Source: Bacteroidota bacterium
Lineage (GTDB): Bacteria; Bacteroidota; Bacteroidia; Bacteroidales; Paludibacteraceae
Assembly (NCBI GenBank): GCA_022708505.1
Contig: JAKIYP010000017.1
Location: 1-36,438 of the forward strand
DNA: 36,438 nt
Direction: 5' to 3'
Positions 21,773 through 31,911 of the stretch are shown in pieces (position 1 is the first letter of the stretch; every line of letters begins with the position of its first letter). Both the position numbers and the translations under genes were made by a program. Under the pieces are notes generated by a model, which searched no databases, was not told the DNA's origin, and saw only the letters and a program-made list of their open reading frames with translations.

Positions 21773-22135
21773 ATGAAAACACTAATTCGTTCTTTAGTAT
21801 TGATCGCAGTGCTCTTTAGTCTGAGTGGTTGCGAAGATTTGAGTAAATCGCTTACTATCACCATGAAAAACACTTCGAATGAAGCTGTACATTTATGGGT
21901 TGATGGAGAAAGTATCGGGCCATCGAACAAGGTAAATCCCGGAGGTAAACGGTCAGTTACACGTGAATGGGAATCAATTACCGGCGAAGAAGGTATTGTA
22001 CCACAAGAGGTTACTGTTTACGTTTATGCTGGAAGAAATGGTGAAACACTTACTTCTGCTAGTTTCGATATCACAGTAGGAAGCCATGCCTCGCTGACAG
22101 TAAGGTATAATGGTAAAACCCTCAGTGGAAGCTGA
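21773..22135 (+). CDS. Small lipoprotein of unknown function
   Basis: 120 residues. The signal peptide (KTLIRSLVLIAVLFSLSGC) ends in a clear lipobox LSGC with Cys20, so the mature protein is lipidated. The next residues EDLS include acidic positions near the Cys. The remaining 100 residues alternate short beta-like segments (LTITMKNTSNEAVHLWVDG, EVTVYVYAGRNGE, ASLTVRYNGKTL) and suggest a small beta-sandwich, but no named family is recognised. It has its own promoter and no obvious terminator before the ilv leader, so read-through into that region is possible. Its neighbours give no functional clue. Confidence 0.75.
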   Translation: MKTLIRSLVLIAVLFSLSGCEDLSKSLTITMKNTSNEAVHLWVDGESIGPSNKVNPGGKRSVTREWESITGEEGIVPQEVTVYVYAGRNGETLTSASFDITVGSHASLTVRYNGKTLSGS

Positions 22136-22232: not shown

Positions 22233-22262
22233 TTGATTTATAAAATTATCTGTTTATCTTTG
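22233..22262 (+). promoter_or_regulatory. Promoter of the ilv operon leader
   Basis: TTG (22233-22235), 19 nt, then TATCTTTG (22255-22262), matching TAnnTTTG. Transcription would start near 22269, about 16 nt before the leader-peptide ATG, and give a leader RNA of roughly 165 nt up to the attenuator T-run. Confidence 0.6.
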
Positions 22263-22285
22263 CAACCGATATTTAATAATAAAAC

Positions 22286-22354
22286 ATGTCCGTTCGTCTA
22301 TTTAATATTGTCGCTTTAATCGTCGTGGTACTTTTGGTCAATCATCAAGGGTGA
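22286..22354 (+). CDS. Branched-chain amino acid leader peptide (ilv attenuator)
   Basis: ATG at 22286, 22 codons, TGA at 22352-22354. Twelve of 22 residues are branched-chain: Val at 3, 9, 13, 14, 15 and 18; Leu at 5, 11, 16 and 17; Ile at 8 and 12. Codons 11-18 form an unbroken run of Leu, Ile and Val (LIVVVLLV). The peptide ends NHQG. It lies between a promoter and an intrinsic terminator and upstream of ilvD-ilvB-ilvN-ilvC. This is the arrangement of ribosome-mediated attenuation leaders such as ilvL of enterobacteria, though the sequence is not related to ilvL. Too short for standard gene finders, it is supported by composition, position and the RNA pairing beside it. Its role is to sense charging of Val, Leu and Ile tRNAs by ribosome stalling. 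Confidence 0.85.
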   Translation: MSVRLFNIVALIVVVLLVNHQG

Positions 22355-22410
22355 GGACGGTTATGTGATCAATATTACAGATATAAATGCACAAGAAGCC
22401 TTTCTCACCT
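22349..22410 (+). promoter_or_regulatory. Antiterminator pairing of the ilv attenuator
   Basis: GGGTGAGGA (22349-22357), which includes the leader stop codon, can pair with TTCTCACCT (22402-22410): nine pairs including two G-U. This sequesters most of the terminator 5' arm (22399-22406). A ribosome that finishes the peptide would cover 22349-22357 and let the terminator form. One stalled in codons 13-18 leaves it free. Confidence 0.65.
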
Positions 22411-22436
22411 ATAATGAGAGAGGTTTTTTCTTTTTT
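22399..22436 (+). terminator. Attenuator terminator before ilvD
   Basis: CCTTTCTC (22399-22406) pairs with GAGAGAGG (22416-22423), eight pairs with one G-U, around a 9-nt loop. TTTTTTCTTTTTT follows at 22424-22436. The ilvD start is only 20-56 nt further on, so this terminator lies in the leader, not at an operon end. Confidence 0.85.
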
Positions 22437-22491
22437 ATCTAAGGCAATTTGATTGATGTTTAAAAAAGATAACCATAATAAAAAACAGAAT

Positions 22492-24321
22492 ATGAAGAAT
22501 ATTTTGCGCAGTCAGACCAGTACCGGCGGAAGAAAAATGGCCGGAGCCAGGGCTTTGTGGAAAGCCAACGGCGTAACCGAACAACAATTTGGCAAACCCA
22601 TCATTGCCGTTGTAAATTCATTTACACAATTTGTCCCCGGACATGTGCATCTGCATGATATCGGTCAGAAAGTAAAAACAGAAATAGAAAAACTCGGCTG
22701 TTTCGCGGCTGAATTTAACACCATAGCCATTGACGACGGTATCGCGATGGGTCACGACGGGATGCTGTATTCTCTTCCTTCCCGCGATCTGATTGCTGAT
22801 AGTGTGGAATACATGGTTAATGCTCACAAAGCTGATGCCATGATATGCATATCCAACTGCGATAAAATCACGCCGGGTATGCTGATGGCTGCCATGCGAC
22901 TGAATATTCCGACTGTATTTGTTTCTGGCGGACCGATGGAAGCCGGCGAATTAGACGGGAAACACCTTGATTTGGTGGATGCTATGGTACAGGCTGCTGA
23001 TGAGGAAATCTCTGATGAACAAATTGCCAAAGTTGAAAGTGCTGCTTGTCCAACCTGCGGTTCTTGCTCGGGTATGTTTACGGCCAACTCCATGAACTGT
23101 CTGAACGAAGCCATCGGATTAGCGCTGCCGGGTAACGGAACCATTGTTGCGACTCATGCCAATCGTGCCCGTTTGTTTGAAGATGCAGCTAAACTGATTG
23201 TTGAAAATGCCTATAAATATTACAGAGACGGAGACGATACCGTACTTCCACGTACCATAGCCACCCGCGATGCTTTCATGAATGCCATGGTACTTGACAT
23301 CGCGATGGGCGGTTCTACCAATACCATCCTGCACACTTTAGCCATTGCACAAGAAGCTGAAGTTGATTTCACCATGGACGACATTGATGCACTTTCCAAA
23401 AAAACACCGTGTTTGTGTAAAGTTGCACCAAATTCAGATAAATATCATGTTCAGGATGTTAATCGTGCCGGTGGTATCCTTGGCATTCTTGGGGAACTGG
23501 CCAAAGGAGGTTTATTAAAAGCTAATGTTTACCGCGTGGATGGTCTTACTTTGCAACAGGCTGTTGAGAAATACAGCATTACCGGTGCAAATCCAAACCC
23601 GGAAGCCGTTCGCATTTACAAAAGTGCTCCGGCTAATCGTTTCAACTTAGTTATGGGTTCACAAACCTCGCAATACAAAGAATTAGATGCTGACCGGGTT
23701 AACGGTTGTATTCGTGATTTGGCACATGCTTTTACCATCGATGGAGGTTTGGGTATTCTGAAAGGAAATATCGCAATTGACGGTTGTGTCATCAAAACTG
23801 CCGGTGTCGATGAAAGTATCTGGAAGTTTAGCGGACCTGCTAAGGTTTTTACCTCACAGGATACGGCATGTTACGGTATTTTGAGCGGACAGGTAGTTGC
23901 CGGTGATGTGGTGGTTATTACCCACGAAGGACCTAAAGGTGGACCGGGCATGCAGGAAATGCTCTACCCTACTTCCTATATTAAATCAAAGAAACTTGGA
24001 AAAGAATGCGCCCTGATTACCGACGGACGTTTCTCCGGTGGAACATCAGGCCTGTCGATCGGACATATTTCTCCTGAAGCTGCTTCTGGAGGTAACATCG
24101 GATTAATTGAAGACGGTGATATTATTGACATTGACATTCCGAACAGGACCATCAATGTAAGATTGAGTGATGAAGAACTGGCTACCCGTCGTGCGAAAGA
24201 GCTGGCACGCGGAGCCGATGCCTTCACCCCGAAAGACCGTAACCGAGTCGTCAGCAAGGCCCTGAAAGCCTATGCTTCGATGGTAAGTTCGGCTGACAAA
24301 GGGGCTGTGAGGATGATTTAA
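22492..24321 (+). CDS. ilvD: Dihydroxy-acid dehydratase
   Basis: IlvD dehydrates 2,3-dihydroxy-isovalerate and -methylvalerate to the 2-keto acids, the third common step of Val and Ile synthesis. The 609-residue protein follows the E. coli type closely: [19 protein letters not shown] at the start, [13 protein letters not shown] near 42, [10 protein letters not shown] with C123, and [12 protein letters not shown] with C186, C189 and C192. C123 and a cysteine of the second motif are candidate Fe-S ligands. [14 protein letters not shown] lies near the C-terminus. The frame is open upstream to 22453, with an ATG at 22456, but family members begin at MKNILRS, so 22492 is preferred; the 12 extra residues would be Lys/Asn-rich and unlike the family. 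It is first in ilvD-ilvB-ilvN-ilvC and directly follows the attenuator. Confidence 0.96.
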
Positions 24322-24418: not shown

Positions 24419-26116
24419 ATGGAACACAAAAAAATGTCAGGGTCACAAATCCTGATTGAATCAATGATAAAAGAAGGCGTTGATACCATCTTCGGATATC
24501 CGGGTGGTGCCATTATGCCGGCATTCGATGCGCTGTATGATTATCGAAACCGGTTGAATCACATATTAACCCGACACGAACAGGGAGCTACGCATGCAGC
24601 GCAGGGCTATGCCCGTGTTTCAGGAAAAACAGGTGTATGCTTAGTTACTTCTGGCCCCGCTGCAACGAACACAATTACCGGCATCAGTGACGCCATGCTC
24701 GACAGTACCCCACTCGTGGTAATTACCGGTCAGGTTGTTGCTCCTTTATTGGGAACGGATGCTTTTCAGGAAATTGATGTGGTTGGAATTACGCAACCGG
24801 TAACCAAATGGGCTTACCAGATTCGGAGAGCGGAAGACATTGCCTGGGCAGTTGCCCGTGCTTTTTATATTGCCAAAAGCGGTCGCCCTGGTCCTGTTGT
24901 ACTAGATATCACTAAAAATGCTCAGATTCAACAGGCTGAATTTGATTACAAACCATGCACCTACATCCGCAGCTATATTCCTGTTCCAGAAGTCAACAAA
25001 GATCAAGTGGCATTGGCTGCAGAAATTATTAACGGTGCTAAAAAACCGTATGCCTTGGTTGGACAAGGAGTTGTATTGTCGGGCGCGGAAGCTGAACTGA
25101 AAACATTCTTGGAAAAAGCGGACATCCCGGCAGCCTGGACCTTGCTGGGCGCATCAGCTATGTCTACTGATTTCCGTTTGAATAAAGGCTTTCTGGGAAT
25201 GCATGGAAACGTATCTCCCAACATGAAAACAAATGAATGTGATGTGTTGATTGCTATTGGGATGCGTTTCGATGATCGTGTAACCGGGGATCTGAATACC
25301 TATGCCAAACAAGCCAAGATCATTCATTTAGACATCGACATGGCTGAAATCAATAAGAATGTAAAAGCAGATGCTCCGGTTTTGGGTAGTGCCAAAGATA
25401 CCCTGCCTGCCATCACTGAATTGCTGAAACCTGCCAAACACACCGAATGGATTGATTCTTTCAAGGTGTATGATGATCAGGAATTCGATAAGGTAATCCG
25501 GAAAGAACTTTATCCTGAATCAGGTGAAATGACCATGGGAGAAGTTATCCGCAAAATTTCGGAAGCCACACAACACAAAGCGGTAATCGTAACCGATGTT
25601 GGTCAGAACCAGATGATGGCTGCCCGTTACTCGAAATACTCACAAACACGTAGTTTGGTTACCTCTGGTGGACTTGGAACGATGGGATTCGGTATTCCGG
25701 CAGCGATGGGTGCGAAAATCGGCGCTCCCGAACGTACTGTTTGCATGTTCAGTGGCGATGGCGGTTTCCAGATGACCATCCAGGAACTCGGGACCATCAT
25801 GCAGGAACAAATCGGTGTAAAAATGATTATCCTGAACAACCATTTCTTAGGCATGGTTCGTCAGTGGCAGGAAATGTTCTTTGATGAACGATATTCATTC
25901 ACAGAAATGCAAAATCCCGACTTTGTTGCCATCGCGAAAGCATATCGTATTGAAGGTACCGAAGTACTGAAAAGAGAAAACCTGGATGCAGCCATTGCTG
26001 ATATGCTGAAAGATGACAAGCCTTATCTGCTCGTAGTAAATGTAGAGAAAAAAGGAATGGTTTACCCCATGATGCCAGCGGGCGCTTGTGTTACCAATAT
26101 CCTGCTGGGAGATTAA
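24419..26116 (+). CDS. ilvB: Acetolactate synthase large (catalytic) subunit
   Basis: A thiamine-diphosphate enzyme condensing pyruvate with pyruvate or 2-ketobutyrate, the first common step of branched-chain synthesis. The 565 residues contain the catalytic Glu in RHEQGA (E54), the TSGPAATN segment, the FAD-binding central domain, and the C-terminal ThDP/Mg motif from SGDGGFQM to LNNHFLGMVRQWQ. The VRQWQ context is normal for the biosynthetic anabolic form. The ATG at 24419 opens with the short MEHKKMSGSQILIE. The gene is 97 nt after ilvD, separated by the heptamer tract, and 32 nt before the regulatory subunit. Confidence 0.96.
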   Translation: MEHKKMSGSQILIESMIKEGVDTIFGYPGGAIMPAFDALYDYRNRLNHILTRHEQGATHAAQGYARVSGKTGVCLVTSGPAATNTITGISDAMLDSTPLVVITGQVVAPLLGTDAFQEIDVVGITQPVTKWAYQIRRAEDIAWAVARAFYIAKSGRPGPVVLDITKNAQIQQAEFDYKPCTYIRSYIPVPEVNKDQVALAAEIINGAKKPYALVGQGVVLSGAEAELKTFLEKADIPAAWTLLGASAMSTDFRLNKGFLGMHGNVSPNMKTNECDVLIAIGMRFDDRVTGDLNTYAKQAKIIHLDIDMAEINKNVKADAPVLGSAKDTLPAITELLKPAKHTEWIDSFKVYDDQEFDKVIRKELYPESGEMTMGEVIRKISEATQHKAVIVTDVGQNQMMAARYSKYSQTRSLVTSGGLGTMGFGIPAAMGAKIGAPERTVCMFSGDGGFQMTIQELGTIMQEQIGVKMIILNNHFLGMVRQWQEMFFDERYSFTEMQNPDFVAIAKAYRIEGTEVLKRENLDAAIADMLKDDKPYLLVVNVEKKGMVYPMMPAGACVTNILLGD

Positions 26117-26148: not shown

Positions 26149-26697
26149 ATGGAAAATAAATTATATACAATCACAATTTTTTCTGAAAATACAGTCGGTT
26201 TACTCAACCAGATTACCATTATTTTCACCCGCAGGGCAATTAACATCGAAACATTGTCAGTCTCCCCATCAGCATTGAAAGGTATCCATAAATTCACCAT
26301 CACAGTTTATGCAACCGAAAGCATGGTAGAAAAGGTTGTTAAGCAAATCGACAAACGCGTGGATATCCTGAAATCTTATTACAATACCGATGAAGATTTG
26401 GTACACCAGGAAATCGCGCTTTACAAAGTGGCTACCGATAAGTTGCTTGGGTTAGGTTCAATTGAGAAAATGGTTCGTCAGTACAACATCAGCATCCTGG
26501 AAATGAATGAGACTTTTGTAGTATTCCAGAAATCGGGGCATTATGCTGAAACACAACAGTTGTTTAACGAGTTAAGTTCAACAGTGGGCGTACTCCAATT
26601 TATCCGCTCCGGACGAGTTGCTATTACAAAATCGAAAGTTGAGCGTCTGAGTGATATGCTGGAAACACTGAAAAAATTTGAAGATCAAAACAATTAA
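26149..26697 (+). CDS. ilvN: Acetolactate synthase small (regulatory) subunit
   Basis: A 182-residue partner of the catalytic subunit that usually confers valine feedback inhibition. The N-terminal ACT domain (about 5-80) begins YTITIFSENTVGLLNQI, followed by RRAINIETLSVSPS. The second, ferredoxin-like domain (about 85-160) contains ELSSTVGVLQFIRSGRVAITK. The order and length fit the 160-185 residue bacterial small subunits. It lies 32 nt after ilvB and 72 nt before ilvC. The symbol ilvH is also used for such subunits. Confidence 0.93.
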   Translation: MENKLYTITIFSENTVGLLNQITIIFTRRAINIETLSVSPSALKGIHKFTITVYATESMVEKVVKQIDKRVDILKSYYNTDEDLVHQEIALYKVATDKLLGLGSIEKMVRQYNISILEMNETFVVFQKSGHYAETQQLFNELSSTVGVLQFIRSGRVAITKSKVERLSDMLETLKKFEDQNN

Positions 26698-26769: not shown

Positions 26770-28248
26770 ATGGCAAATTATTTCAATTCACTTCCACATC
26801 GCCTGAAAGTTCAGGAACTGGGAAAATGTGATTTTATGGAAAGCAGCGAATTCGCTGATGGAGTTAACAAACTGATTGGCAAAAAAGTAGTTATCGTTGG
26901 TTGCGGCGCTCAGGGCTTAGCTCAGGGACTTAACATGCGCGATAGCGGTCTGGATGTTGCTTACGCACTGCGTAAAGTTGAAATCGACGAAAAACAAATT
27001 TCTTATCAAAACGTAGTTGAAAACAAGTTTGAAGTGGACACCATTGAAAATATGGTTCCAAAAGGTGATCTTGTATTGAATTTAACCCCGGACAAATATC
27101 ACACTCCGGTTGTTAATCAGATTATGCCGCTGATGAAAAAAGGCGCTTGTCTGTCGTATTCTCACGGTTTCAACATCGTGGAAGAAGGCATTCAGATTCG
27201 CAAGGACTTAACCGTGATCATGGTAGCTCCAAAATCTCCGGCTTCTGAATTACGTGCTGAGTACCTCCGTGGTTTCGGTGTTCCTACCCTCATTGCTGTT
27301 CACTTGGACAACGACCCGAATGGCGACGGACTGGAAATTGCCAAGGCCTATTGCGTTGGAACTGGTGGTCACAAAGCCGGTGTACTGCATTCGTCATTTG
27401 TTGCAGAAGTAAAATCGGACCTGATGGGCGAACAAACCATTCTTTGCGGTCTGTTGCAAACCGGTTCTATCCTGTCATTCAACAAGATGGTAGAATCTGG
27501 CATCGACAAAGGATATGCTTCTAAATTAGTACAATACGGATGGGAAGTGATTACCGAAGCGTTGAAAATCGGTGGTATCACCCACATGATGGACCGCTTG
27601 TCGAATCCGGCTAAAATCGAAGCTTACAAATTAGCGGAAGAGCTGAAAGAAATCATGACACCTTTGTTCGCGAAACACATGGACGATATCCTTTCAGGAG
27701 AATTCTCACGCACCATGATGGAAGACTGGGCGAATGGCGACAAAAACCTGTTGGCATGGCGTGCAGCTACCGGTGAAACCGATTTCGAAAAAACTCCCGC
27801 CGGCAACATGGAAATTACCGAACAAGAGTATTTCGACAATGCTGTACTGATGGTAGCCTTTGTTAAATCAGGCGTTGAACTGGCTTACGAAATGATGACC
27901 AACTCAGGCATGAAACCTGCATCGGCTTATTATGAGTCATTGCACGAAACACCACTGATTGCCAACACCATTGCCCGTAAAAAACTGTTCGAGATGAACC
28001 GCGTTATCTCCGACACCGCCGAATACGGTTGCTACTTGTTCGATCACGCTTGCAAACCGCTGTTGGCCGACTTCATGAAAAAAGTAGATACCAGCCTCAT
28101 CGGTAAAAACTTCAACGAAGGCAAAAGCAACCACGTCGACAACTTCGAACTGGTACAGGTAAATGCTGCCATCCGCAACCACTCCATCGAAGTATGTGGT
28201 GCCGAATTGCGTGCAGCCATGACTGCCATGAAGAAAATCGTGGAATAA
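26770..28248 (+). CDS. ilvC: Ketol-acid reductoisomerase, class II (long form)
   Basis: Converts acetolactate or acetohydroxybutyrate to the dihydroxy acids using NADPH and Mg2+. The 492 residues mark the long class II enzyme with a duplicated knotted C-terminal domain, as in E. coli. The Rossmann loop is [14 protein letters not shown] with GCGAQG at 44-49. LRKVEIDEK follows, where basic residues typically bind the NADPH phosphate. [24 protein letters not shown], the metal-binding [12 protein letters not shown] near 220 and [13 protein letters not shown] in the second repeat are all present. A plausible extra promoter upstream is too weak to call. The gene ends the operon at a strong terminator. 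Confidence 0.96.
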
Positions 28249-29509: not shown

Positions 29510-29845
29510 ATCGAGTAAACTGCCCCGCCAGCTTAACTGACGGGAAGAGCCTCTCACACCACTGTAGTGCGACAAGAAGTCGCTTAATATAACTGTTTAA
29601 CACTCATTGAATGACTGATTAAACCATGCGTTCCATCGCAAACAGCCTAAGGACACGTGCATACGAGCAACCGGTTTGTGCGAAGCTGTCCGGACAATAT
29701 AGCCTATAAAAACTTTCTGTGAAGAAAGTCTTTATTGTATCGTTGAATGATGGAGGAGTTAGGCTTAGCTGGTATGGTTAACAAAAGTGAACGTCCTTGA
29801 CTTCCTCCTTTGTCAGGGGGACTTTCACCCTTCAGAAAAACACAC
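29510..29845 (-). mobile_element. Degenerate ORF-less group II intron remnant
   Basis: Read on the minus strand, it begins GTGTG (29845-29841), matching the GUGYG intron 5' end. Within about 25 nt comes GGGTGAAAGTCCC, a domain I motif of bacterial introns, then TTGTTAACCATACCAGC. Near the 3' end lies GTGGTGTGAGAGG, the usual 3' half of domain V. A domain VI-like hairpin CCCGTCAG/CTGGCGGG with loop TTAAG follows, and the end is TTTACTCGAT. The 5' half of domain V does not pair properly, and there is no reverse transcriptase, so about 336 nt remain of a normal 2-kb element. The exact ends are estimates from remembered family motifs. Confidence 0.55.
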
Positions 29846-30947: not shown

Positions 30948-31911
30948 ATGAAAACACCCCTTATCATCTACTGGTTTCGCCGCGGTTTAAGATTGCACGA
31001 CAACAGGGCTTTGTTCGAAGCGCTGCAAAACGGCTGTCCTGTATTGCCCCTTTTTATCTTCGATACTGATATTCTCGACAAATTACCGGACAAAAGGGAT
31101 AAAAGGGTTGGGTTCATTTATCATGCAATCAGCAAGTTACAGGATGAATTGATAAAAATGGGAAGTTCCTTGCTGGTGCTTTACGGGAAACCACTGGATA
31201 TCTTTCAGCAACTGCAACAACAGTATGCTATTTCGGCAGTATATGCAAATCATGATTATGAACCCGAAGCCATAAAACGGGATTCAGCAATTGCCGACTT
31301 ACTGAAGAACCATAACATTCGTTTTGAAACATACAAGGATCAGGTTATTTTTGAAAAAGCTGAAGTCCAATCCCTATACCGTATTCACACCTTACTCAAA
31401 AAGGTGGAAACAGCAACTTACTGAAGAAACGGTGAAATCATTCCCAAGTCAAGATTACCTGATGCATCTTTATAAAACCAATCCATTTCATTTCCCTGCA
31501 CTTACAGCAATTGGCTTTGTTGATGCCGGAATGAGGGAGTTAAACGCAACCGGCTACATGCACAACAAGGTGCGGATGATTGTCGCAAATTTCCTGACAA
31601 AGCATTTGTTGATTGACTGGCGTTGGGGTGAAGCCTATTTTGCGGAGAAACTGCTGGACTATGAGCTATCATCGAACAACGGAAACTGGCAATGGTCGGC
31701 CGGCTGTGGCTGCGATGCTGCTCCCTATTTCAGAATATTCAATCCTGCCGAACAAACAAAAAAGTTTGACCCCAAACATATTTACATAAACAAATGGGTT
31801 GAGAATATACACGAAAAAGATTATCCGGAGCCGGTGGTTGAACATCAATTCGCGAGAGAAAGAGTTTTGCAAGTGTTTAAAATGGCACTTAATAATGATA
31901 AGATAAATTAG
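30948..31911 (+). pseudogene. phrB: Deoxyribodipyrimidine photolyase/cryptochrome, decayed
   Basis: The first part, from ATG 30948, encodes a good photolyase antenna domain (YWFRRGLRLHDNRALFEAL, later ANHDYEPEAIKRD). After QVIFEKAEV (about 31366) the family sequence continues only in the +1 frame ([17 protein letters not shown]), which implies a small indel. Further on, IGF is joined directly to [16 protein letters not shown] at about 31516. The segment that should lie between them, the first half of the FAD-binding domain, is missing. The last part ([38 protein letters not shown]) is well preserved to the stop at 31911. Reading through both frames gives about 320 codons against about 430 in the family. 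Loss of FAD-pocket residues makes repair activity unlikely even if the frame were restored. Confidence 0.88.

Follow-up and report, generated by a model that had tools for sequence, protein, structure and literature searches.

A predicted ribosome-mediated attenuator in the leader of ilvDBNC in a Bacteroidales genome and its relatives

The window analysed here is a stretch of 36,438 nucleotides (nt) from a Bacteroidota bacterium of the order Bacteroidales, family Paludibacteraceae (assembly GCA_022708505.1, contig JAKIYP010000017.1), and it contains a leader region ahead of the branched-chain amino acid (BCAA) genes ilvD, ilvB, ilvN and ilvC. The leader is best explained as a ribosome-mediated transcription attenuator that senses charged valine and leucine transfer RNA (tRNA) and controls ilvDBNC, a reading to which we give a probability of about 0.9. 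It is built on the elements themselves, their conservation, the matching of strand 2 to strand 3 across families, the placement of the control codons and the feasibility of three folding states in the window; from these we infer leader translation, stalling, termination and read-through in the cell. The elements of the leader are as follows.

22233..22262, + strand: Bacteroidota-type promoter, made up of a weak -33 element TTG (22233-22235) and a -7 box TATCTTTG (22255-22262).
22286..22354, + strand: leader peptide gene of 22 codons, MSVRLFNIVALIVVVLLVNHQG*, read from the sequence and kept in the genus.
22317..22338 (22317-22324 and 22329-22338), + strand: strand 1, the 5' part of the protector helix, within isoleucine, valine and leucine codons; supported by the minimum free energy (MFE) fold, pair probabilities, RNAalifold (inner part) and the synonymous-codon control.
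22344..22363, + strand: strand 2, which holds the leader stop codon and is the partner of strand 1 (through 22344-22353 and 22356-22363) or, as antiterminator 22349-22362, of strand 3.
22397..22410, + strand: strand 3, the terminator 5' arm and start of the loop, alternative partner of strand 2.
22393..22436, + strand: intrinsic terminator (3:4), with core 22399-22407/22415-22423, loop 22408-22414 and T-rich tail 22424-22436.

Valine, leucine and isoleucine account for 12 of the 22 leader codons, with an unbroken run, LIVVVLLV, at codons 11-18, and the stop codon TGA (22352-22354) lies within the antiterminator strand. An earlier note on this DNA had described the promoter, the 22-codon frame with its composition and run, the terminator, and the overlap of antiterminator and stop codon; all are found in the sequence at the places it gave, and the terminator was also picked up by a pattern scan. 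The note's nine-pair alternative helix is present as well (22349-22357 with 22402-22410, including two G-U pairs), but the helix is longer than was claimed, as it runs on past one C.U mismatch for four more pairs (22359-22362 with 22397-22400). In the MFE fold the competing 1:2 helix is formed by 22317-22324:22356-22363 and 22329-22338:22344-22353. The region 22268-22440 folds at -50 kcal/mol (z = -5.87), with none of 200 shuffles equally stable, and an unguided RNAalifold run over 30 leaders recovers the inner 1:2 hairpin and 3:4. When the window's 1:2 helix is compared with synonymous variants of the same peptide, an equally strong helix is seen in 0 of 150 and 3 of 150, depending on which of two codon pools is used.

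The proposed mechanism would run as follows. RNA polymerase probably starts near 22268, as judged from the sequence, and a ribosome would translate the 22-codon leader. With valine and leucine ample, the ribosome would get to the stop codon and cover strand 2, so that the 3:4 terminator could form and transcription would stop near 22436. With valine or leucine scarce, the ribosome would stall at codons 13-18, masking strand 1 and leaving strand 2 free; 2:3 would then form before strand 4 exists, and the polymerase would continue into ilvD. If the leader were left untranslated, 1:2 and 3:4 would form and transcription would end.

Folding of the exposed window RNA, with strand 4 not yet made, gives the states that this scheme needs. 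A stall at each of codons 11-18 yields 2:3 with a probability of at least 0.99, a ribosome at codons 22-23 leaves no 2:3, and without a ribosome 1:2 forms with a pair probability of about 0.99; in the full-length leader the terminator pair probabilities are 0.998-1.0. Thermodynamically, the window's leader can adopt each of the three states, and the earlier note's idea that a stalled ribosome frees the antiterminator strand while a finishing one masks it agrees with these values. The calculation assumes equilibrium, whereas in transcription 1:2 is made first.

The leader is widespread among relatives. Under a strict rule, the region upstream of ilvD had to contain a frame of 12-45 codons with at least 7 valine, leucine or isoleucine residues in 9, followed 10-130 nt later by an intrinsic terminator at most 320 nt from ilvD; three loci with less than 180 nt upstream (L005, L174 and L184) were dropped beforehand. 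Leader and terminator were found in 31 of 31 loci of the window's genus (the window included), 53 of 83 in the order outside that genus, 2 of 5 with a distant (~560-aa) IlvD type in the order, 1 of 5 from other orders of the class and 23 of 78 named records. None of 2,020 dinucleotide shuffles (310, 830, 50, 50 and 780) and none of 202 reverse complements passed. A looser rule raised the counts to 68 of 83 in the order and 25 of 78 named records and left the others unchanged (31/31, 2/5 and 1/5), with passes in 9 of 1,010 shuffles (0/155, 3/415, 1/25, 0/25 and 5/390, in the same group order) and 5 of 202 reverse complements. When the named records are divided by phylum as read from their titles, other phyla give 0 of 32 under both rules and Bacteroidota groups 23 of 46 (strict) or 25 of 46 (looser). 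The named matches include Bacteroides graminisolvens, Odoribacter laneus, an uncultured Alistipes and a Labilibaculum sp., as well as L133 and L134, which are genomes of the window's genus.

The order loci fall under 49 anonymous family labels, of which 31 hold a strict match and 40 a strict or looser one. These figures exclude L053 (genome G359), whose IlvD is 90% identical to that of the window and whose contig may be misplaced and belong to the window's genus; if it is given a separate label the counts become 50, 32 and 41. Loci of one family share descent, and the survey counts are not independent events. Left out of the order survey were a second G429 copy, G408 (at a contig end), fragments in G288, G369 and G379, and distant second ilvD copies in G331, G382 and G416; a phylum-wide survey yielded more distant IlvDs. 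Several rumen Prevotella are among the named records that gave no match.

Promoter and leader frame are both kept in the genus. The -7 box TATCTTTG ends 23 nt ahead of the leader ATG and agrees with the Bacteroidota consensus TAnnTTTG quoted in passages of PMC7366714 and PMC9723704. Of 30 genus loci, 28 have a TAnnTTTGC match close to the leader; the others are L023, with TATCTTTGT instead, and L005, with only 126 nt of upstream sequence. No Shine-Dalgarno-like sequence was seen by eye ahead of the leader. The frame is probably translated, and the length differences in the genus alignment bear on this: within the frame there are four deletions, three of 3 nt and one of 6 nt, and an insertion of 3 nt, with extra 3-nt end gaps in the leaders of L003 and L004, and after the stop codon only 6 of 78 length differences are multiples of three. 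Some weight must be taken from this argument for the attenuator, as it is partly circular, an open frame having been a condition of detection.

Pairing is well preserved within the genus, and between families it is kept by differing sequences. In 29 genus sequences, 94.6% of 335 cells are paired in 2:3 (49-61% in slid versions), and for 1:2 plus 3:4 the figure is 95.8% of 522 cells (41-67% when slid). The earlier note had proposed looking in relatives for a conserved frame and for covarying pairs; the frame and terminator recur as counted above, but within the genus few pairs change on both sides (1 of 12 in 2:3, 1 of 18 in 1:2 plus 3:4), because the sequences are close. The case for 2:3 therefore rests on the exchange test across families, where two-sided changes are plain. 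Matched strand 2/strand 3 pairs of differing sequence include AATCGGTAT/ATGCCGATT (L041), GACCCGGAAA/TTTCCGGGTC (L110) and GGTGGAAAGG/CCTTTCCACC (L069). In 77 loci outside the genus list, which include L053 and L135 with leaders resembling those of the genus, the 2:3 duplex has a mean of -15.7 kcal/mol with a locus's own arms and -11.4 kcal/mol with arms permuted; in 31 genus loci the values are -16.5 and -15.8 kcal/mol, and in neither group did any of 20,000 permutations reach so low. The control pairing 1:3 was not significant in either group, with 18,217 and 6,483 of 20,000 permutations. These tests preserve composition, not phylogeny, a gap that the 1:3 control covers only partly.

The control codons stand where such a mechanism would require them. 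Across the 77 loci the fraction of valine, leucine and isoleucine codons is highest 4-6 codons ahead of strand 2, at 0.87-0.92 (valine 0.47-0.52), and drops to 0.21 at codon -1 from strand 2. A ribosome with a footprint like that of Escherichia coli leaves RNA exposed from 12 nt past the first base of the A-site codon, and given such a footprint a ribosome 4-6 codons ahead of strand 2 would cover strand 1 and free strand 2. The window's control codons 13-18 read V V V L L V, and therefore valine and leucine, not isoleucine, should be sensed. Across families the leader peptides keep their content of these residues but not their sequence. Codon choice is also unusual, as GTC makes up 50% of leader valine codons in the genus compared with 9% of valine codons in the ilvD genes; in 21 named loci outside the genus the shares are 47% and 16%. 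The leucine codon CTG is 0% of leader leucine codons in the genus. Part of this bias may serve the 1:2 helix and part may tune tRNA sensing. With a ribosome placed at codon -7, at least five expected 2:3 pairs form in 31 of 31 genus loci and 70 of 77 others.

Taken together, conservation, exchange tests, codon placement and folding support leader-peptide attenuation of ilvDBNC well, as the earlier note had proposed, yet a number of observations weigh against it. The attenuator role is itself a prediction, drawn from sequence and folding, and relatedness is not removed from the exchange test on which 2:3 depends. Neither rule finds a leader in 15 of the 83 order loci, among them L057 and L087, the two loci that represent other genera of the window's family, or at the named Heminiphilus faecis locus. 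In 8 of the 77 loci strand 2 is seen only in a wider window, because it ends 11-16 nt ahead of the stop codon. At least five 2:3 pairs persist with the ribosome at the stop codon in 1 of 31 genus loci and 10 of 77 others, and the contrast between stall and stop (at least five against fewer than three pairs) is found in 24 of 31 and 51 of 77, not in all. With strand 3 swapped between loci, 31 of 31 genus loci and 67 of 77 others still reach five expected pairs, with mean 2:3 pairs of 11.3 instead of 11.6 in the genus and 9.1 instead of 11.0 elsewhere; the swap alters little because terminators resemble one another. Lastly, 1:2 is not dominant in most relatives, as 2:3 needs no ribosome to form in 20 of 31 genus loci and 64 of 77 others, and the full three-state pattern is seen in only 8 of 31 and 4 of 77.

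This last point gives the most serious alternative its footing. The family at large could be a plain two-state switch, in which 2:3 competes with 3:4 and a ribosome at the stop codon blocks strand 2, and a strong 1:2 helix would be an addition in some species, mainly blocking read-through when the leader is untranslated. We would wager against this view, though not heavily, and it refines the attenuator reading instead of excluding it. The helix 1:2 exceeds its permuted partners in both groups (-18.4 vs -15.1 and -18.6 vs -16.3 kcal/mol, with 0 of 20,000 permutations in each). It also beats synonymous variants (p<=0.05) in 17 of 31 genus loci and 39 of 77 others when these are drawn from ilvD codon usage; with the leader codon pool the counts are 13 of 31 and 24 of 77. 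The inner 1:2 hairpin is also recovered by RNAalifold, and the equilibrium folding from which the two-state counts come ignores that 1:2 is made first. We take the 1:2 helix to be a real but variable part. The earlier note's phrase, a compact two-state switch, does not fit the window, whose strong protector hairpin makes it a full 1:2/2:3/3:4 attenuator; the simpler description comes closer for most relatives, since 1:2 is not dominant there.

Predicted attenuators of this kind are not confined to ilvD. When 29 of the ilvD leaders were made into a covariance model, it matched such a leader in 32 of the 36 genomes of the genus (E 5e-21 to 1.3e-13), largely by construction because the model was made from these loci; of the other four, three are without an ilvD match and one has only 126 nt upstream. 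The model also picks out, in all 36 genomes, a site ahead of leuA and in the same orientation (E 6.4e-10 to 1.1e-3). The leuA leaders were absent from the training set, and their positions were compared by eye. A leucine-rich or valine/leucine/isoleucine-rich frame and a terminator both precede leuA in 22 of 30 loci by a scripted check, and in the window's genome the leuA leader reads MNNNFLHILLLGIIILLQKQ, with an antiterminator match (G000:C32:339-441, L218). One relative, G057 (L043; G057:C112:1-360), carries two BCAA-rich leader frames in tandem ahead of a single ilvD; each has its own terminator and a matching antiterminator. An RNA of the Bacteroid-trp family (RF01692) was detected in 27 of the 36 genomes of the genus, in 20 of them with a score above the cut-off; the window's own genome has one (G000:C58:7925-8054, 52.7 bits). 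A WWW leader occurs in all 8 loci inspected, before a TrpB-like open reading frame (ORF; TrpB by eye). The residues suit the operon in each case, the leuA leaders of the genus being rich in leucine and isoleucine.

We lean, with some reserve, towards a wider reading in which one old, order-wide attenuator family largely controls BCAA synthesis in Bacteroidales. It would comprise valine/leucine-rich leaders at ilvD and leucine/isoleucine-rich leaders at leuA, with the antiterminator strand on the leader stop codon, valine often read from GTC, which is scarce in the downstream gene, and a tandem pair in one lineage.

The leader model also gives weak matches (E ~4e-4 to 0.05) at other positions in genomes of the genus, some of which lie on the opposite strand at the two sites already described. 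A histidine attenuator was considered and rejected, as no frame with 3 histidines in 8 residues was found in the 11 scorable hisG loci of 12 taken. A terminator lies 136 to 65 nt upstream of hisG in 11 of 11 scored loci, and in 4 of 5 inspected a longer alanine-rich frame ends just ahead of it; since the frame abuts the terminator, the latter looks like that gene's own.

Two further explanations of the ilvD leader fare much worse than attenuation. The ORF could instead be a gene, with a terminator of its own, for a small hydrophobic membrane protein, ilvD being reached by read-through or from a further promoter, and the peptide is indeed hydrophobic with a terminator next to it. This is very improbable, as peptide sequences diverge between families while the valine, leucine and isoleucine near strand 2 are kept, leader residues follow the operon (at leuA and at the TrpB-like ORF), strand 2 matches the terminator arm within loci, and codon choice favours 1:2 beyond what the peptide needs in part of the loci. 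Slightly less probable still is a ligand-binding riboswitch or T-box (a tRNA sensor) with an incidental short ORF, for although a structured leader with a terminator and an alternative helix would suit any transcription-attenuating RNA, no Rfam 15 family reaches its gathering score at the leader (the window's sole match is a group II intron model at 29624-29758), and what is conserved includes a coding frame enriched for the end products of the pathway and set at a constant spacing from strand 2.

That a leader peptide attenuates ilv genes is established for enterobacteria; for Corynebacterium, Leptospira and others it is described or proposed (PMC10272879). As in the enterobacterial ilv, leu and trp systems, the leader described here joins a short ORF rich in the product amino acids to mutually exclusive helices and a terminator with a T-run, and serves the same pathway. 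It differs in phylum, in having ilvD as the first gene, in its Bacteroidota promoter box, in the overlap of the antiterminator strand with the leader stop and in showing, by eye, no Shine-Dalgarno-like sequence. Enterobacterial leader attenuators are mentioned in PMC10272879 and PMC5794164. According to passages of the latter, Staphylococcus aureus ilvD is likewise preceded by a BCAA-rich leader peptide and a terminator, and suppressors selected without valine map to both (PMC5794164). There the codons are for leucine and isoleucine, CodY also acts and the predicted antiterminator sequesters the poly-U (PMC5794164), whereas the leader here is dominated by valine and leucine codons and its antiterminator pairs with the 5' arm of the terminator. 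The Corynebacterium ilvB-II, Leptospira ilvB and ilvB-OMG motifs have a BCAA-rich upstream ORF for which attenuation is proposed in a passage of PMC10272879; these resemble the present leader, by description, in placing such an ORF before a BCAA gene, but come from other bacteria and precede ilvB.

Contrary to the earlier note, which had called such regulation little studied in Bacteroidota, precedents exist within the phylum. Bacteroid-trp is a Bacteroidota leader RNA in Rfam, as set out in part of PMC2864571; it serves another amino acid, and its covariance model has no match in the window at the gathering score. For Flavobacterium psychrophilum, PMC9723704 speaks of 'strong clues' for leader-peptide attenuation of amino-acid operons, the same mechanism being proposed in the same phylum, and its section on 5' cis-regulatory RNAs names no ilv leader. 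In Bacteroides thetaiotaomicron, 5' untranslated regions with small ORFs reminiscent of leader peptides are noted in PMC7366714, the main text of which has 0 occurrences of 'ilv'. The literature searched yielded no account of an ilv or leu leader from Bacteroidales; it did not extend to Lopatovskaya et al. 2010 (Mol Biol), which is likely to be an earlier source, or to the supplements of PMC9723704 and PMC7366714. The ilvD leader would be a further case of a known mechanism, as attenuation of ilv genes is classic and Bacteroidota hints are in print. Since the mechanism is textbook, the surprise lies in its breadth and conservation, not its kind.

Bacteroidales are major bacteria of the gut and of anoxic habitats, and little was found in print on the regulation of their amino-acid synthesis. 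A conserved attenuator before ilvD, and in the genus also before leuA, lets regulation be predicted from sequence. It also directs attention to small peptide genes often overlooked by annotation and to an RNA element unmatched in Rfam 15, and it offers a natural reporter of valine and leucine supply that is testable in laboratory Bacteroides.

The window's genome is 2.4 Mb in 149 contigs and about 75% complete. The genes after the leader, in the order ilvD, ilvB, ilvN, ilvC, are presumably one transcript, and an ORF stands on the leader's 5' side.

21773-22135: 120-aa ORF, 5' of the leader, without a Pfam or NCBIfam match.
22492..24321, + strand: ilvD, dihydroxy-acid dehydratase, first gene of the presumed operon (NCBIfam NF009103 / TIGR00110 over cut-off).
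24419..26116, + strand: ilvB, acetolactate synthase large subunit (TIGR00118 over cut-off).
26149..26697, + strand: ilvN, acetolactate synthase small subunit (TIGR00119 over cut-off).
26770..28248, + strand: ilvC, ketol-acid reductoisomerase (NF003557 / TIGR00465 over cut-off).

The start of ilvD is taken as the ATG at 22492, where the alignments of relatives begin; the mechanical ORF list has TTG 22453. Further downstream, the intron match (Rfam group-II-D1D4-7, 62.9 bits) lies between a DUF2971 ORF and an isochorismatase-like ORF, in a gap with no ORF of at least 100 aa in the ORF list. Beyond it, the domains of a DNA photolyase are split over two overlapping ORFs, PF00875 in 30948-31424 and PF03441 in 31324-31911, which is a frameshift or an assembly error.

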